NCBI GenBank assembly: GCA_013298595.1
Contig: JAAFIG010000005.1
Location: forward strand, 62,001 to 126,000
From: Deinococcales bacterium
GTDB taxonomy: Bacteria; Deinococcota; Deinococci; Deinococcales; JAAFIG01
DNA length: 64,000 bases
Direction: 5' to 3'
The stretch's first letter is position 1. Each line of letters opens with the position of its first letter. Below, in pieces: positions 1-11,789 of the stretch. Position numbers and translations under genes: made by a program. The notes beneath the pieces were generated by a model. It saw only the letters and a program-made list of their open reading frames with translations, made no database searches and was not told where the DNA came from.

Positions 1-3000
1 AACTGTAACCAATTGGCACAGGATGACAAACATAGTACTCGCCTGTTCCGTTTTGGTCTGCATCAATGACGGTTTCAATGGCGTAATTGCCAGTGGGTAC
101 TGTGCTGTTAAACCTGAACTTGTAGCCTTGTTCAGGAACCCATTTCATGACTTGTCGTCCAGCAGTTGTATATGCTGTGGCAGCATTGTTGAGTTGAAGT
201 AATGCAATATAGGCTCGTCCTGCGTCTACAGTACCAGCACCTTGTCGGTAATATACAGGAGCAAAGGTATTTTGCGTGCCTGTACTGGCTTGGATACTCC
301 CAATGTAAGAACCATCAGCTAATCCTGTGCGATTGAGATTGACGTTAATGGTCACACTGCTATTGCCTGCGATGTTGCCTGTGGCACTACCCGAAACATC
401 ACCACTAATAAAGGCATTTGAACCACTGAGTGTGTATGTTCCAGCGGTACTCGAGAGGTTGCGTAAAGTCATTGTACCTGTGGTGGTGCTTGCTCCAAAA
501 TCTAATCCAGGGTTGGTGGTTGTTCCCGAAGCATTGTACTCGAGTTGTAAGAACGCACCAATTGGGTTGTTGCTTATAGCTGCTGCTATGGCAGCAACGG
601 CGTTGACTGCACCTGCTCCGCAACCACTATCGCAACCAGAACCAGCGGGAATGGGTGTCGCGGTGCTTTGTAAGTAAAAAGTGGCTTGTTGCAAATTGAG
701 TTTAGGTAAACTGTTGGCTACTCGAGCAGCGTTCATTAAGCCAATAATGCCAACAATGTGTGGTGTTGCCATGCTTGTTCCTTGGTATTCGGTGTAGCCC
801 CACGGGGCAGCTCCGCAACCTGTAGTTGGGTCAGGTGGTGTTTGTCCATTGGCATTGCAACCAAGGGTAGAAAGAACGCCATTAGGTGTTGTGGCACTGT
901 TAAAATCGCCACCAGGAGCAGCAATTTCTACAGCAGAACCATAATTGGAATAATAAGCGCGTTTTACGCCAGGTCCTAGAGCCGCCACAGTTAAAACATT
1001 GCGTTGACCCGCTGGAGCGTAACCATAAGCATTGTCGTTGTCGTTACCAGCTGCGACCACAAGGACTTTACCAGCGGTGTTGACATCATCGGCTGCGTCT
1101 TGGTATGCCTGATCTACTCCAGCTCCACCTAGGCTCATGTTGAGAATATCCGCAGGATTTGGATTGGTGATGCTTGTATTGCCTGAACCTGTATTAACAG
1201 TAACTGGTAAACCAGCTGCCCAACGCATGGCTCGAGTAATGTCGGAGGTGGAACCACCACTAGGTCCTAATACTCGGACTGCCATCATGCGGCTGCTCCA
1301 GTTAATGCCTGCAATACCAAGATTGTTGTTGCTACAAGCCCCGATTGTGCCTGCAACGTGGGTTCCATGCAAGCTGGTATCAGCGTATGGTCCAAGGTCG
1401 TAAGGGTCGTCATCATCGAAGGTGTTGGCTTCGACACTGCTGGCATAGGAAACAAAATCAAAGCCGGGTAACCATCTGTTGGTTGCACCAGAACCACAGT
1501 ATAAATCTTCGTGGGTGCTGGCTTCTTTGGTGTTATTCACGTCTAAACCAATGTAATCGGCTTTGTTATACAAAATGCCTGTGTCTAAAATAGCAACGAC
1601 TACACTCGAGTCGCCTGTGGTTATATCCCAAGCCGTTGGAATGTTTGCCATTGAGTAATGCCAAAAGTTATTGGGGGTATTAGCAGGAGATTGCACAGGG
1701 TACTTTGGGTCGTTAGGGGTTAGGGTGTGTTTGTATAAATAATTGGGTTGGGCGTATTCAACATCGGCTCGAGTTCGTAATTGTGCAATAAAATCAAGGG
1801 TTGATTGAGCATCTGGGGTTGAAGCCTGAATTGAAGCGATGCCAGCTCGGGGGGGTATACTCGAGCTAGTCACCAAACTGGTGTTCTCAAATAAAGGTTG
1901 TTGATTCAGCACCGATAATGGACGTAACACACCATCGAATGGCAAGGGTTTAAATTTCACAATGGCTTGTCCGATGACAAAACGGGCTTCTGTGGCAATG
2001 CCTAAACTTTGCGGGGTGTTGCTGGTAACATATGGTAAGTACATTGTTCCCGAAACAGAAGCAGAAGTGGTCGGTGTCACCATAAAAGTGGGTGCGCTCG
2101 AGGTTCTGATATTATCGGCTCGAATGGCAACACAACCCGTACAAGCCGTTGAAACCGTACCACCAGGACCACCACGCACAAAAATTTCTTTTGTGCCAGA
2201 ACCAGCAAACGCTGTGGCTCGAGCTGCCACATTGGTAAAGTTAGCCACACCTTCTTCGATACTGCGCGTAAAACGCATGGTTGGTTCGTCTGCCACTAAA
2301 AACGACATAAAGAAACGGTAAGGGTCTTCGGCAGCACTCGAGCCTTTAGGTACTCGAATAGCCAGTGTAATTTCACCGATGTCACCATTGGCAAAAACCC
2401 TTGTCCAAGTTGGTGTAGCTGTTGCACAATTAGCAGTGCAACGCCGTGCCACATACCCGTACTCGAGAATTTCATCGGTACTGCCAATAATTCCAGCAGC
2501 TCGAGCTTGTTGTTGTGCGGCGGCAGCTTCGGCAATCTGAAAAAACTGCATATCGGCTTTGTTCGGATTGACTGTGGTGCTGTTGGTCATGCCATGAATG
2601 GGTTTGACTTTTTGGGCAAAAGCAGGATTGGTAATTTCTGTGTTACCAAAGTTAAACACGCGATTTAAAGCTGTGCCACCAAGATTAGTGCTTCGACCAA
2701 TGGCATACAATGTGATGTTACTAAAAGCCCGATTGGCTTGAACAGTAAATGTTCCAGCAATATCAATACTTGTTCCATTATCAACATTGCTATAGGTGCT
2801 TGGTGGGGTCAAGGTGATTGAACCAACCGCGAAAACCGTAGCTGGACGCAACTGCCCACTGTCTTTGTTGTCGTTGAGACCAAGTGTCACTGTACTTATT
2901 TCACCAGATGAAGGCACGGAAATAGATACGGGCGTTGGGGTTTGAGTACATGCACCTAAAAGCCCTAAAACTAAAATAGAAACACTCAAAAAATGCTTAT

Positions 3001-3004
3001 TCAT
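1..3004 (-). CDS. S8 subtilisin-like serine peptidase, lipoprotein (C-terminus beyond window)
   Basis: The frame is open from the ATG at 3004 to the left edge, about 1001 residues, so the C-terminus is missing. Residues 1-19 are a lipoprotein signal with lipobox LLGAC. The stretch before the protease ends in a typical S8 prodomain motif (VEYAQPNY). The catalytic triad is present: Asp474 in AILDTGI, His546 in HGTHVAG and Ser744 in GTSMATPH. After about residue 800 comes a beta-rich BACON-like region. It should be an active, membrane-anchored or secreted endopeptidase; its substrate is unknown. The ATG overlaps the stop of the upstream 55-codon gene as ATGA, so the two are probably translated together. 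The family call is firm; any link to the peptide is inference. Confidence 0.93.
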   Translation of the reverse strand, partial: MNKHFLSVSILVLGLLGACTQTPTPVSISVPSSGEISTVTLGLNDNKDSGQLRPATVFAVGSITLTPPSTYSNVDNGTSIDIAGTFTVQANRAFSNITLYAIGRSTNLGGTALNRVFNFGNTEITNPAFAQKVKPIHGMTNSTTVNPNKADMQFFQIAEAAAAQQQARAAGIIGSTDEILEYGYVARRCTANCATATPTWTRVFANGDIGEITLAIRVPKGSSAAEDPYRFFMSFLVADEPTMRFTRSIEEGVANFTNVAARATAFAGSGTKEIFVRGGPGGTVSTACTGCVAIRADNIRTSSAPTFMVTPTTSASVSGTMYLPYVTSNTPQSLGIATEARFVIGQAIVKFKPLPFDGVLRPLSVLNQQPLFENTSLVTSSSIPPRAGIASIQASTPDAQSTLDFIAQLRTRADVEYAQPNYLYKHTLTPNDPKYPVQSPANTPNNFWHYSMANIPTAWDITTGDSSVVVAILDTGILYNKADYIGLDVNNTKEASTHEDLYCGSGATNRWLPGFDFVSYASSVEANTFDDDDPYDLGPYADTSLHGTHVAGTIGACSNNNLGIAGINWSSRMMAVRVLGPSGGSTSDITRAMRWAAGLPVTVNTGSGNTSITNPNPADILNMSLGGAGVDQAYQDAADDVNTAGKVLVVAAGNDNDNAYGYAPAGQRNVLTVAALGPGVKRAYYSNYGSAVEIAAPGGDFNSATTPNGVLSTLGCNANGQTPPDPTTGCGAAPWGYTEYQGTSMATPHIVGIIGLMNAARVANSLPKLNLQQATFYLQSTATPIPAGSGCDSGCGAGAVNAVAAIAAAISNNPIGAFLQLEYNASGTTTNPGLDFGASTTTGTMTLRNLSSTAGTYTLSGSNAFISGDVSGSATGNIAGNSSVTINVNLNRTGLADGSYIGSIQASTGTQNTFAPVYYRQGAGTVDAGRAYIALLQLNNAATAYTTAGRQVMKWVPEQGYKFRFNSTVPTGNYAIETVIDADQNGTGEYYVCHPVPIGYS

Positions 3005-3168
3005 TGAGCTTCACCGTCCATAAAATCTGTGGCTTGCTCGAGAAATCCATCGGGTATGAAATTATTAAACCCTGTGGATTCCCCTGTGACTAAACACCAG
3101 TGTTGATGCAATTCAAGATGAGGTATTTGGTATGCCTGACGTTTTTTTGGTTGCGTATCAGTAGTCAT
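3001..3168 (-). CDS. 55-residue peptide with lasso-type leader motif, coupled to the S8 peptidase
   Basis: This short gene has a strong ribosome site (GGAGG, 6 nt before ATG 3168) and its TGA overlaps the peptidase ATG. The peptide starts with a basic stretch (KKR at 8-10). It then shows Tyr13, Pro16, Leu18 and Thr28, matching the spacing of the YxxPxLxxxGxxxxxT leader motif of lasso and related RiPP precursors, with Gln22 in place of Gly. The part after Thr28-Gly29 is 26 residues with Phe, Asn and acidic residues and one Cys before it (Cys25). No Asp or Glu lies at core positions 7-9, so a classical lasso ring is unlikely. No RRE, B or C protein is visible. That it is translated is likely; precursor function is a hypothesis. 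Confidence 0.75.
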   Translation of the reverse strand: MTTDTQPKKRQAYQIPHLELHQHWCLVTGESTGFNNFIPDGFLEQATDFMDGEAQ

Positions 3169-3472
3169 GTATTACCTCCGATTGAGTGACTCGAGCCAGC
3201 AGCGTCACAGTCTGATCAACACGCTACTGACCAAACGTCACACGGGCGTTAGACAAGAGTATTTTTGTCAATAAGACAATTAATTCGCTCGAGTAGAATA
3301 AACGTGATGAGCGAATTAAATTAGCGTCATACGGAGAAAAATGACAATTCTGTAAACAAATCACAACCTTATTGATTCCGAATCTTGTAGAGCAACCAAA
3401 GCTGCTTGATTATTTTTTAGCTCGAGTCAAGTTGGTTTTTCTGTTTTTATTTGTACTAGCATAAGATTTGGC
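3169..3472. other. Intergenic region, no gene seen
   Basis: About 300 bases with no convincing reading frame. It holds the Shine-Dalgarno of the 55-residue peptide gene at its left end, the 11-bp inverted repeat at 3280-3319, and probably the promoter for the peptide-peptidase pair. On the minus strand a TTGACA lies near 3266-3272, but I see no matching -10. Confidence 0.6.
3280..3319. repeat. 11-bp perfect inverted repeat upstream of the peptide-peptidase pair
   Basis: TTAATTCGCTC at 3280-3290 is mirrored exactly by GAGCGAATTAA at 3309-3319, with an 18-nt spacer. There is no T-run beside it. It sits about 110 nt upstream of the 55-residue peptide start on the minus strand, so an operator or an mRNA leader hairpin are both possible. 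Confidence 0.6.
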
Positions 3473-5338: not shown

Positions 5339-6964
5339 TTACGGAGTGGCTTTGCGTTTACTAGCAAAAAATTGGTTAAGTAACGCCACCGATTGTTTCT
5401 CGAGTACTCCTGTACGCACTGTAAAACTGTGGTTCCAATTGGCTCGAGTAGCATCTAAAACACTTCCCAGCGCACCATTTTTTGGATTACGAGCTGCAAA
5501 GACAATTCGGCTAATACGGGCTTCGATGGCAGCTCCAAGGCACATCAGGCAAGGCTCGAGCGTAACAACCAAGGTGCAATCGGTTAAGTATCCTGTGCCC
5601 AGCACCTGACTGGCATTGCGTAATACCTCGAGTTCGGCATGTCGAGTCATATCTTGATTGGCATACGAAACATTATGGGCTTGGGCAATAATCGTGCCAT
5701 TGTGCAAAATCACTGCACCCACTGGTACTTCGTTGAGGCTCGAGGCAAGTCTGGCTTGTTCAAGAGCGACTTTCATGGCATCAATTTCGGGGTCTTTGGG
5801 TTGAGGTAAACTGGCATCGAGTAAAGGCGGTTCGAGTCCGACATAAACAACTTTCTGCCCAAGTGCCAGCACCATGATGTTATCGCGGATTTCTCGAGGG
5901 ACTTTACGATCAATAAAAATATCCGAAAGCGAATTGCTGCCACCTACCAAATTGATCGTATCGCCTGGTGCTCGAGTACGAAGAATAGCATCTGGAAAGG
6001 CATTTTTGGTAATTTCTAAAGCTTGTGCACTTTCGGCTGAAACAGCCACAAAACCCGTCTCGAGCAGCGAAGAATAAACTTGCAGCATACCATCTTGTAC
6101 CACCCCAGCTTTGTTTTCGGGCAACGAAACCCTCGAGACTTTTGGTTGTTGCAATGCCTGACGTAGCGCTTCGATATGCTCAAAATCGGTTTGCACTCCA
6201 GCTTGCTCGAGGATTTTACGAATCACCCGCCGCTGAATCACACTGTGCTCAAGCCGCAAATCTGTCCAAGCGGGCACAGCTGATAATTCCTCGAGTAATA
6301 AATGCTCATCCCGAGCAATATCGGCATACCGAGCCAAGGCAATACTTGCCGTAGGGAAACGCTCGAGCAGCAACGGCATCACCTGCAAACGCACCCAGTT
6401 ACGAGTGAATTTTGTATTCGCATTGCTGCTATCCTCACGCCAGCTAAGCTGCTGAGCCAGCAAAAACTCTTCGAGCAACACCTTAGAAACATCCAATAGC
6501 GGACGCAACACCCGTCCGAAACGAGGCGGAATACCTGTTGCCTTCCCAGAACCCCGCAACAACTGCATCAATACTGTCTCAGCACAATCCTCGAGCGTAT
6601 GCGCCGTCAAAATAAACTGGCAACCCTGTGCTTTTGCCACTCGAGCCAAAAACTCGTACCGCACATTGCGAGCCGCTTCCTCGAGGCTCCAACCACGCTT
6701 CGTTGCAATACCCTGAACATCAATCCGCTCCGAGAAAAAAGATTTCCCCAGATCAAAAGCTGCCTGCTGCACAAACTCTGCGTCCAAGCCTGAATCCACC
6801 CGTAAACCATGATCCAGATGCGCCACAACCACATCCAAACTTTTAGCTAAATACAATAACGCCATCGAATCACGCCCACCTGATATAGCTAACAACAAAC
6901 GCGACCCTCGAGCCACCCCCAATTGCTCGAGGGCAGCATCAAATAAAGTCTCGAGCGATTGCAT
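5339..6964 (-). CDS. tilS/tadA: Fusion of tRNA(Ile)-lysidine synthetase and tRNA adenosine deaminase
   Basis: 541 residues. The first ~390 are TilS, which makes lysidine at C34 of tRNA-Ile; the PP-loop SGGRDS is at residues 28-33, followed by the Glu-rich AHTLEDCAE motif. The last ~150 are TadA, which converts A34 to inosine in tRNA-Arg, with zinc/catalytic motif HAE and EPCLMC. I recall the same two-enzyme fusion from Deinococcus. I start at ATG 6964 because TATACT (6971-6976) ends 6 nt upstream; a reading frame continues 25 codons further upstream but has no homology. Both enzymes modify position 34, so fusion makes sense. Confidence 0.95.
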   Translation of the reverse strand: MQSLETLFDAALEQLGVARGSRLLLAISGGRDSMALLYLAKSLDVVVAHLDHGLRVDSGLDAEFVQQAAFDLGKSFFSERIDVQGIATKRGWSLEEAARNVRYEFLARVAKAQGCQFILTAHTLEDCAETVLMQLLRGSGKATGIPPRFGRVLRPLLDVSKVLLEEFLLAQQLSWREDSSNANTKFTRNWVRLQVMPLLLERFPTASIALARYADIARDEHLLLEELSAVPAWTDLRLEHSVIQRRVIRKILEQAGVQTDFEHIEALRQALQQPKVSRVSLPENKAGVVQDGMLQVYSSLLETGFVAVSAESAQALEITKNAFPDAILRTRAPGDTINLVGGSNSLSDIFIDRKVPREIRDNIMVLALGQKVVYVGLEPPLLDASLPQPKDPEIDAMKVALEQARLASSLNEVPVGAVILHNGTIIAQAHNVSYANQDMTRHAELEVLRNASQVLGTGYLTDCTLVVTLEPCLMCLGAAIEARISRIVFAARNPKNGALGSVLDATRANWNHSFTVRTGVLEKQSVALLNQFFASKRKATP

Positions 6965-6970
6965 ACGTTC

Positions 6971-6976
6971 AGTATA
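6971..6976 (-). promoter_or_regulatory. -10 box (TATACT) for leaderless tilS/tadA start
   Basis: TATACT ends 6 nt before ATG 6964, with no Shine-Dalgarno between them. This decides the start codon. Confidence 0.6.
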
Positions 6977-7067
6977 AGGTGAAAGGCAGGCACAGCGAAA
7001 ACAGGTGAACTTGGGTGGGGTTGTGGAAACGTGGTGCAACTCTCACCCGACTCGCTTAGGCTCGTCA

Positions 7068-9425: not shown

Positions 9426-11726
9426 TTAGGGTAGGCGAATGGTGAAAGTGCCTAACAGCACAGATACAGGTGTTGGAGTGCTAAAACCAGTCGTGCCGTT
9501 TCCAATTTGTCCTCTATTATTTCCACCCCAACTCAATAGTGTTCCATCGGATTTTAGGGCAAGTGAATGAATAGAACCTGCCGCAATTGCAACGATATTA
9601 TTTGCGTTACTAACAGGGACTGGTGTGGGTTTACTCGCACTTGCGGTATCATCACCAAGTTCTCCGAAGAAGTCACTGCCCCAACTAAGTAAAGTGCCAT
9701 CTGATTTCAATGCAAGAGAAAAATTGCCACTTGCTGCAATTGCGACAATACTATTTGCCCCTCTTACAGTAACTGGTGTGGGTTTATTCGCTATTGTGGC
9801 ATCATCACCAAGTTTTCCTTCCGTATCACTTCCCCAACTGAGCAATGTGCCATCAGATTTTATAGCAAGAGAAAAATCGCTACCTGCTGCGATAGAGATA
9901 ACATCGCTTGCACCACTAACAGGAACTGGTGTGGGTTTGTTTGCGATTGTAGAGTCATCTCCGAGTTGTCCATTGGTATCTTGTCCCCAACTGAGCAATG
10001 TGCCATCAGATTTTAACGCGAGTGCAAAAAGACCGCCTGCTGCGATTGCGATAATGTTATTCGCTCCACTGACAGCAACTGGTGTGGGTTTGTTTGCGAT
10101 TGTAGAGTCATCTCCGAGTTGTCCAATGATATCCGATCCCCAACTGAGCAGTGTGCCATTTGATTTTAGCGCAAAAGAAGTATTACCACCCGCTGCGATT
10201 GCGATAATATTGTTTGCGGTGCTTACACTGACAGGTGTGTGTTTATCTGCGGGTGCTGTATCGTCTCCCAGTTGCCCATCGTTATCCCTTCCCCAACTGA
10301 GGAGAGTGCCATCGGATTGCAAAGCCAGTGAATGAGTGTAACCTGCTGCGATTGCTACAATGTTTTTTGTATCACTGATAGCAACTGGTGTGGATTTATT
10401 TACGAGTGGTTCATCATCTCCAAGTTGTCCATTGCTATCTTCTCCCCAACTGAGGAGAGTGCCATCAGATTTTATAGCAAGAGAATGACCAGTGCCTCCA
10501 GCAATACTGGCTTTCATCGGGTTGACACTAACAAAAATAGTACTTTTCTGACTCAAGTCTTGAACACTAGTAGCAGTAATCCTCACAACTCGTCCAAAAC
10601 TCGAGGGAGGAGCTTGGTAGAACACGGTATTACCAGTTGAACTCGAGAGTTTCCCAACACCACCATTTTCGATTGCCCAAGTGACTGAGTTACTAAATGC
10701 ACCTGTTCCTGCTACTGAGGCGAATAAAGTGGAACTTTCGGTTTCGCGCATTGCTACTCGAGAAGCTGAAACACTGACTGCTGTGATACTCGAGGCGGGA
10801 GGTACAACTGCGTTAATGTTGATGGTGACATCACCTGATTTGCTTGGGTCTTGAATACTTGTAGCTCGAATTATTGTTGAACTCGAGGTTGTCAGGCTTG
10901 GCGCTGTAAAGGTAGTTGTTGCACCCGTCGCCGCTGAGATTGTTCCACTACCACTAACAATGCTCCAGATTACACCTGTACCAATAGAACCTGTACCAGT
11001 AACGGTTGCTGCAATACTGGTTGTTGCTGTTGCATTCAAAGGCGTACTAGGAGTTGTAGTTAAACTCACATTGGTGACACTCGAACCTGCTGCTACTGGG
11101 TTGTTGGTGATTGTGATAACACCTGATTTACTCGAGTCTTGGACACTGGTCGCACGAATGATCGTTGTACTCGAGGTTGTTAAACTTGGAGCGGTGAAAG
11201 TGACTGGTGAACCTGTAACAGTCGAAAGTGTTCCAGAACCACTAACAATGCTCCAATTAACTGCGAGACTGAACCCATTTGTGCCTGTCACTGTGGAAGT
11301 AAGAACTGCTGGACTGGCTGCGTTAACAGTTGCGAAGTCTGAAGTGACAGTCACTGCTGTAACACTCGAGTTGACTGCAACGGGAATAACTTCGATGATA
11401 ATCTGCTCTGATTTACTGGTATCGGCTGTACTTTTAGCAGTTAAGGTGACATTGGTGTTTGTTGTCACGGTTGGTGCTTTGAAACGAACTGAACTGCCTG
11501 TGGTTTTAGATAGTGTTCCATTACTGGCTGTCCAAGTGACTCCTTTGTCATAGGCTCCTGTTCCGCTAACTTCAGCAAAAACAAATTGACTTGCCCCACT
11601 GCTGATACTCGAGTCTGATGTGATGCTGATCCCTGTGATGGTTGGTGCTGGAATGGTTTGTCCTCCACAAGCACTGAGTATTGCGGCGAGAGTGAATGTA
11701 ACAATTGACCATACTATTTTTTTCAT
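9426..11726 (-). CDS. Lipoprotein with four Ig-like repeats and a seven-repeat RCC1 propeller
   Basis: 766 residues from ATG 11726. The lipobox LSAC is near residue 20. Four Ig-like (BIG-type) repeats of about 95 residues fill residues 25-400; each has a VTWxxxxGxxSxxTG-like core. Then seven RCC1 repeats of about 51 residues follow, each with LALKSDGTLLSWG and GQLGDD-like motifs, enough for one complete seven-blade propeller. It is a surface-exposed binding protein of unknown ligand. The propeller part (9430-10600) contains no CTCGAG, while the Ig part has many. The blades are near-identical, suggesting recent repeat expansion. Confidence 0.85.
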   Translation of the reverse strand: MKKIVWSIVTFTLAAILSACGGQTIPAPTITGISITSDSSISSGASQFVFAEVSGTGAYDKGVTWTASNGTLSKTTGSSVRFKAPTVTTNTNVTLTAKSTADTSKSEQIIIEVIPVAVNSSVTAVTVTSDFATVNAASPAVLTSTVTGTNGFSLAVNWSIVSGSGTLSTVTGSPVTFTAPSLTTSSTTIIRATSVQDSSKSGVITITNNPVAAGSSVTNVSLTTTPSTPLNATATTSIAATVTGTGSIGTGVIWSIVSGSGTISAATGATTTFTAPSLTTSSSTIIRATSIQDPSKSGDVTININAVVPPASSITAVSVSASRVAMRETESSTLFASVAGTGAFSNSVTWAIENGGVGKLSSSTGNTVFYQAPPSSFGRVVRITATSVQDLSQKSTIFVSVNPMKASIAGGTGHSLAIKSDGTLLSWGEDSNGQLGDDEPLVNKSTPVAISDTKNIVAIAAGYTHSLALQSDGTLLSWGRDNDGQLGDDTAPADKHTPVSVSTANNIIAIAAGGNTSFALKSNGTLLSWGSDIIGQLGDDSTIANKPTPVAVSGANNIIAIAAGGLFALALKSDGTLLSWGQDTNGQLGDDSTIANKPTPVPVSGASDVISIAAGSDFSLAIKSDGTLLSWGSDTEGKLGDDATIANKPTPVTVRGANSIVAIAASGNFSLALKSDGTLLSWGSDFFGELGDDTASASKPTPVPVSNANNIVAIAAGSIHSLALKSDGTLLSWGGNNRGQIGNGTTGFSTPTPVSVLLGTFTIRLP

Positions 11727-11734
11727 TTGAACCC

Positions 11735-11789
11735 CCAAAAAGTGTTTTCACAAACTTGGACTCTGTGATGTGTTTACACTACTTTTTGG
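11735..11789. repeat. Inverted repeat in the 5' region of the RCC1 lipoprotein gene
   Basis: CCAAAAAGT (11735-11743) and ACTTTTTGG (11781-11789) are perfect 9-bp arms separated by 37 nt, directly upstream of the gene at 11726. This may be a leader hairpin or operator. Confidence 0.45.

Follow-up and report, generated by a model that had tools for sequence, protein, structure and literature searches.

A peptide gene overlapping a lipoprotein gene

The window, i.e., the whole stretch of 64,000 nucleotides that we analyzed, comes from a Deinococcales MAG that is 94% complete (hereafter G000), for which gene calls were based on ORF lists. Near its start, on the minus strand, a gene for a 55-residue peptide runs directly into that for a large lipoprotein. 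The features of this locus are as follows.

3175..3179, minus strand: GGAGG ribosome-binding site preceding the ATG of the peptide gene by 6 nt, read directly from the sequence
3001..3168, minus strand: precursor-like peptide, 55 aa, identified as an ORF and through homologues and their alignment
Inside 3001..3168, minus strand: leader motif Y13-x2-P16-x-L18-E19 plus T28, and the candidate modified residue Ser31 (Tyr+18)
3001..3004, minus strand: ATGA, overlap of the peptide stop with the lipoprotein start
2948..3004, minus strand: signal peptide and lipobox LLGAC (Cys19) of the downstream lipoprotein, from the sequence
2105..2905, minus strand: conserved N-terminal domain of ~270 residues (aa 34-300), a predicted beta-sandwich belonging to no Pfam family
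611..1609, minus strand: Peptidase S8 (subtilase) domain, aa 466-798

The product of the 3001-3168 ORF is MTTDTQPKKRQAYQIPHLELHQHWCLVTGESTGFNNFIPDGFLEQATDFMDGEAQ. The initial annotation had recognized in it a lasso-type leader motif with Gln in place of Gly, and this is what we found: Y13, P16, L18 and T28 are all present, Q22 replaces the G, and the motif is conserved at homologous loci. The strong ribosome site and the overlap with the S8 peptidase gene that had also been described are both in place, and the same ATGA overlap occurs on contigs C26, C15, C16 and C41 of G000 and on C605 of another genome, G012. To judge from this overlap, the peptide and lipoprotein genes are presumably translationally coupled. 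The ribosome site, the overlap and the homologues elsewhere establish that the peptide ORF is real.

Scans of the peptide and of the window against Pfam, NCBIfam and Rfam gave no match to the peptide, and the regular expression Y..P.LE.{5,10}[TIVM]G found the window copy alone in a 177 kb six-frame translation. When the single peptide was searched against its own genome, six further weak matches were obtained (E 0.03-0.8), five of which were short ORFs of 47-53 residues beside paralogous lipoprotein genes; the chance of such an outcome is ~1e-15 by a binomial estimate. The peptide family in this genome is thus beyond chance.

The S8 lipoprotein comprises 1036 aa, its gene extending past window position 1. 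Cys19 of the lipobox is invariant among 16 aligned homologues, and the catalytic motifs of the S8 domain are in place (DTG474, HGTH546 and GTSM742).

Direct reading of the window also drew attention to an ORF at 5339-7039 (minus strand), an apparent fusion of a TilS-like ATPase with a TadA-like tRNA deaminase, and to a lipoprotein at 9426-11738 (minus strand) in which Ig-like repeats are followed by RCC1-like repeats (LKSDGTLLSWG). Separately, the HIP1-like iterated palindrome CTCGAG occurs 396 times in window 1-64000, against 6.15 expected, and 3-6 times per kb in the loci of related genomes.

The peptide family and its lipoprotein partners

A profile search of 111 genomes brought the count for G000 to at least nine peptides; G003 has six and G012 four, while G033 and G001 contribute a single peptide each. 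Their consensus is YxxPxLExHxxWxxxTGxSLPIG, with Y, P, L, E and G invariant or nearly so. The SLPIG start of the core is conserved, whereas the cores of lasso peptides vary freely. At Tyr+18, eight of the nine G000 peptides have Ser and one has Thr; this Ser/Thr is missing in four of the six G003 peptides, even though G003 carries the enzymes described below. A divergent kinase was considered as the cause of this loss but found no support, the G003 kinase being as similar to the others as these are to one another.

Asp or Glu at core positions 7-9 is lacking in the window peptide and in 20 of 21 cores altogether, the sole exception being E7 of the G033 peptide, whose core ends one residue later. 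Against NF033521, the NCBIfam model for the lasso RiPP family leader peptide (cut-off 19), the G033 peptide scored 16.7 bits and a peptide from G099, a genome of another family, 23.7, while the window peptide gave no match.

All nine G000 peptides adjoin genes of exported lipoproteins that share, after the lipobox, the N-terminal domain of ~270 residues. This N-domain is previously undescribed. G000 contains it 11 times, it was absent from ~100 further genomes of the class, and a search with a tighter alignment gave matches confined to Deinococcales MAGs. The AlphaFold model is a beta-sandwich (pLDDT 76, pTM 0.77), for which comparison with solved structures returned no credible match (best Foldseek E 0.015; best VIA Z 6.6, no higher than the usual background).

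The C-terminal modules of these lipoproteins differ. S8 is found in the window copy alone among the nine G000 partners; the others carry an Exo_endo_phos nuclease with LTD, a GSDH sugar dehydrogenase, RCC1, NHL/SGL, FG-GAP or a P-domain. One N-domain lipoprotein subtype is directly followed by one to three tail-collar (PF07484) proteins in G033, G041 and G000:

L163 11942-13494, L166 1870-3407 and L114 4369-4881: tail-collar PF07484 loci

Pairs of peptide and N-domain genes occur in four other genomes as well, and three families are represented in all. The recurrence of the pairing in other genomes, which the initial annotation had suggested looking for, was therefore observed for the N-domain lipoprotein; the S8 peptidase is not the shared partner. 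In the enzyme-bearing genomes, a peptide accompanies 18 of about 35 N-domain genes, about half being without one.

A lasso-type enzyme set and the search for a cyclase

The hint in the initial annotation that the leader might be bound by a RiPP recognition element (RRE) is well supported, in that the genome encodes both a lasso-type RRE (PqqD) and a B2 protease. The discrete, PqqD-type RRE lies on contig C10 and scores 61.9 bits against PF05402 (Pfam cut-off 23.4); its best NCBIfam model is lasso_PqqD and the closest PDB chains are TbiB1 and TfuB1. The end of its gene is overlapped by that of an HprK-like kinase with the Walker A sequence GESGRGKTTT (GxSGxGKTT). Relatives give matches to TIGR04352 that fall under its cut-off (1e-8 and 1e-6), and the G099 kinase passes PF07475. 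On contig C34, inside a polysaccharide locus, we found a fusion of an NTP_transf_5 nucleotidyltransferase (PF14907, 86 bits) with B2, which passes the NCBIfam lasso_biosyn_B2 cut-off (36.2 vs 33). The presumed catalytic Cys/His and a YGDxDV motif are kept in the fusions of five genomes.

Because the enzymes and the peptides of G000 are on different contigs, their linkage there is by presence only. In G033, a single cluster holds PqqD, kinase, fusion, peptide, an N-domain lipoprotein and three collar-domain proteins. G012 has PqqD, kinase and peptide on one contig and the fusion beside an N-domain gene; the fusion gene of G041 shares an overlap with an N-domain gene. Kinase matches above 250 bits were restricted to six of the 111 genomes, all of them N-domain-bearing. 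The genomes compared are draft MAGs, nearly all fragmented.

G001, of the same genus as G000, contains 15 N-domain copies, one intact-looking peptide and a marginal PqqD; no kinase, fusion or clear PqqD was found in this draft genome. The scarcity of peptides in G001 relative to the enzyme-bearing genomes gave a Fisher p of 0.0035 with paralogues counted as independent, and we treat the contrast as supporting evidence only, because the copies are non-independent and G001 is a draft.

A search of G000 with PF00733 for a lasso cyclase returned a sole, weak Asn_synthase match, namely MnmA, and no Asn_synthase or cyclase was found in G041, which is 99% complete. G033 has one full-length Asn_synthase match, which scores as an asparagine synthase and is far from the cluster. 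By contrast, G003 has two real lasso clusters, but the precursor adjoining one of the cyclases has WxxP, not YxxP. As an observation in its own right, G003, a Deinococcales MAG, carries on C74 (L226 3236-6884) a lasso cluster resembling that of paeninodin, in which a cyclase and a kinase accompany the WxxP precursor. Of the RRE, B and C proteins that the initial annotation had proposed searching for, PqqD and B2 are thus present and C, the cyclase, was not detected. With no ring-closing enzyme in the toolkit, the product is therefore probably linear. A dedicated exporter was not identified either, and no MsbA-like one was noted beside the precursor or enzyme genes.

A similar enzyme set was found in G099, which encodes PqqD, an unfused B2, kinase, radical SAM and NTP_transf_5 proteins, with no neighboring cyclase:

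G099 C285, L224 4030-11953: cyclase-less cluster around a secreted SpaA-fold protein

Since a SpaA/DUF11 lipoprotein, which is secreted, and a peptide with YTPPKLQEHGNVEDVTLQTFFGTFSPPAGVGN are encoded within this cluster, the pairing with secreted proteins may extend beyond the N-domain.

Proposed pathway, alternatives and known systems

We propose that the peptide is processed into a linear, leader-cleaved and probably phosphorylated product by a trans-acting, cyclase-less enzyme set, a reading to which we assign a probability of roughly 0.7, covering the precursor and the enzymes only. The peptide family, its pairing with the lipoproteins, the presence and conservation of the enzymes and the lack of a detectable cyclase were established here, whereas leader binding, cleavage, phosphorylation, export and role are inferred. 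One lasso-type enzyme set would serve nine or more precursors in trans. The PqqD-type RRE of C10 would bind the YxxPxLE leader, and the adjacent kinase would phosphorylate the Ser at Tyr+18, which is S31 here and in most copies S3 of G-x-S-L-P-I-G. The transglutaminase-like B2 protease of the C34 fusion would cut at or near T28/G29, and the fused nucleotidyltransferase may decorate the phosphate. No ring would be closed.

As for the function, each precursor gene adjoins its own lipoprotein gene, often with translational coupling, and for this reason the modified peptide could be a dedicated partner of the N-domain rather than of the S8 domain, a tentative view that we hold at somewhat below even odds. 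A stronger version, in which the phosphopeptide, once processed, serves the shared N-domain as its dedicated tag or prosthetic partner and may even be attached to it covalently, seems improbable. If true, it would mean that a RiPP toolkit equips a family of surface proteins having diverse cargo domains, rather than making a free natural product.

The same machinery might instead release a free secreted signal or antimicrobial, the pairing with lipoproteins reflecting mere co-regulation. Lasso peptides are usually free products, and N-domain genes without peptides do occur; against this stand the one-to-one pairing with N-domain genes, repeated in several genomes, and the lack of any exporter gene noted beside the precursors, and we consider such a product unlikely, if worth keeping in mind. 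It is much harder to accept that the ORF is just a translational leader, acting in cis on the downstream gene. Its shortness, its position just upstream and the ATGA overlap would suit that role, but the amino acid motif is kept across three families, the peptide gene on G000 C3 is downstream of the N-domain gene, that on G012 C551 is instead accompanied by the genes for PqqD and the kinase, and the G099 peptides come after the secreted-protein genes.

The ATGA coupling to the S8-bearing gene is also what favors a propeptide, inhibitor, substrate or chaperone specific to the secreted subtilisin, the partner named in the initial annotation. As a conserved partner, the subtilisin did not hold up: one of nine peptides and one of 13 S8 genes are so paired in the genome, and eight of the nine paralogous peptides adjoin lipoproteins without S8. 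The peptide is absent from all 12 other S8 loci of G000, and the small ORFs before eight of these genes do not resemble it, so that the S8 domain is incidental. On these counts an S8-specific role is very unlikely; moreover, no signal sequence is visible in the peptide, and the S8 protein itself weakly matches a Fervidolysin_NPro-like prodomain. A true lasso precursor, its ring closed by an unlinked cyclase, is likewise very unlikely. It would account for the leader motif and its spacing, PqqD and B2, and cyclases are present in the related G003. However, none was detected in G000 or G041, the acidic residue is missing from nearly all cores, and the G003 precursor next to a real cyclase is of the WxxP type. 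That this is no ordinary lasso peptide, as first annotated, is thus borne out. The reading we prefer remains that of a linear, phosphorylated product.

The LPPs (Linear Polyphosphorylated Peptides) of Bacillota, described in May 2026 (PMC13381572), are made by a set comprising an RRE, an HprK-like kinase, an NTP transferase, an SpI-like peptidase and an exporter, without a cyclase; LppK phosphorylates S3, LppA is cut after T-1, and LPPs are called restricted to Bacillota (PMC13381572). The Deinococcota system resembles this in its discrete RRE, HprK-like kinase and NTP transferase, in the absence of a cyclase and in the YxxP leader motif. The LPP motif YxxPxVLxHQxIxFETxxS is in register with YQIPHLELHQHWCLVTGES: HQ, T and S, including the phosphorylated Ser, have the same spacing in both. 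In the window peptide, Y, P, H, Q, T and S match, and V, L, I, F and E differ. LPP and paeninodin genes are often in polysaccharide loci, as is the G000 fusion gene.

The differences are several. The Deinococcota system has the B2-nucleotidyltransferase fusion instead of an SpI-type peptidase; the SpI-like (archaeal-type) leader peptidase TIGR02228 was absent in all eight genomes searched, the B. subtilis positive control being matched. No MsbA-like exporter was noted beside the precursors, of which there are up to nine per genome, dispersed and each beside a secreted lipoprotein gene, and the host belongs to Deinococcota. Because the SpI-type peptidase is absent, we do not file the system as an LPP member; we call it a cyclase-less, LPP-like RiPP system, which probably works as LPPs do. 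The new RiPP class entertained in the initial annotation is accordingly only partly sustained: the variant has distinct features, but a closely similar family, the LPPs, has already been published (PMC13381572). Our search of the open-access literature turned up no report of a system like this from Deinococcota.

Paeninodin, pseudomycoidin and Bsf are the other relatives. In pseudomycoidin, the phosphate is further modified by N, which attaches hexoses, and fusions of N with B2 have been described (PMC8498205); BsfK phosphorylates Ser3 with RRE help, YxxPxL lying at -17 to -12 (PMC10368454). B1 (PqqD), B2, the kinase K and the nucleotidyltransferase N, including the N-B2 fusion, are shared with these systems (PMC8498205, PMC10368454), as are the [Y/W]xxPx[L/I] leader, T or I at -2 and, putatively here, Ser phosphorylation. 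Unlike them, G000 lacks the macrolactam cyclase, the acidic ring residue and a compact gene cluster.

The cyclase-less relatives of the lasso pathway that we found reported are the LPPs, described as restricted to Bacillota and with no known role. In a second phylum, a similar enzyme set seems to act on many precursors whose genes are dispersed, each neighboring the gene of a specific secreted lipoprotein, and this pairing may offer a genetic clue to the targets of linear phosphopeptides.
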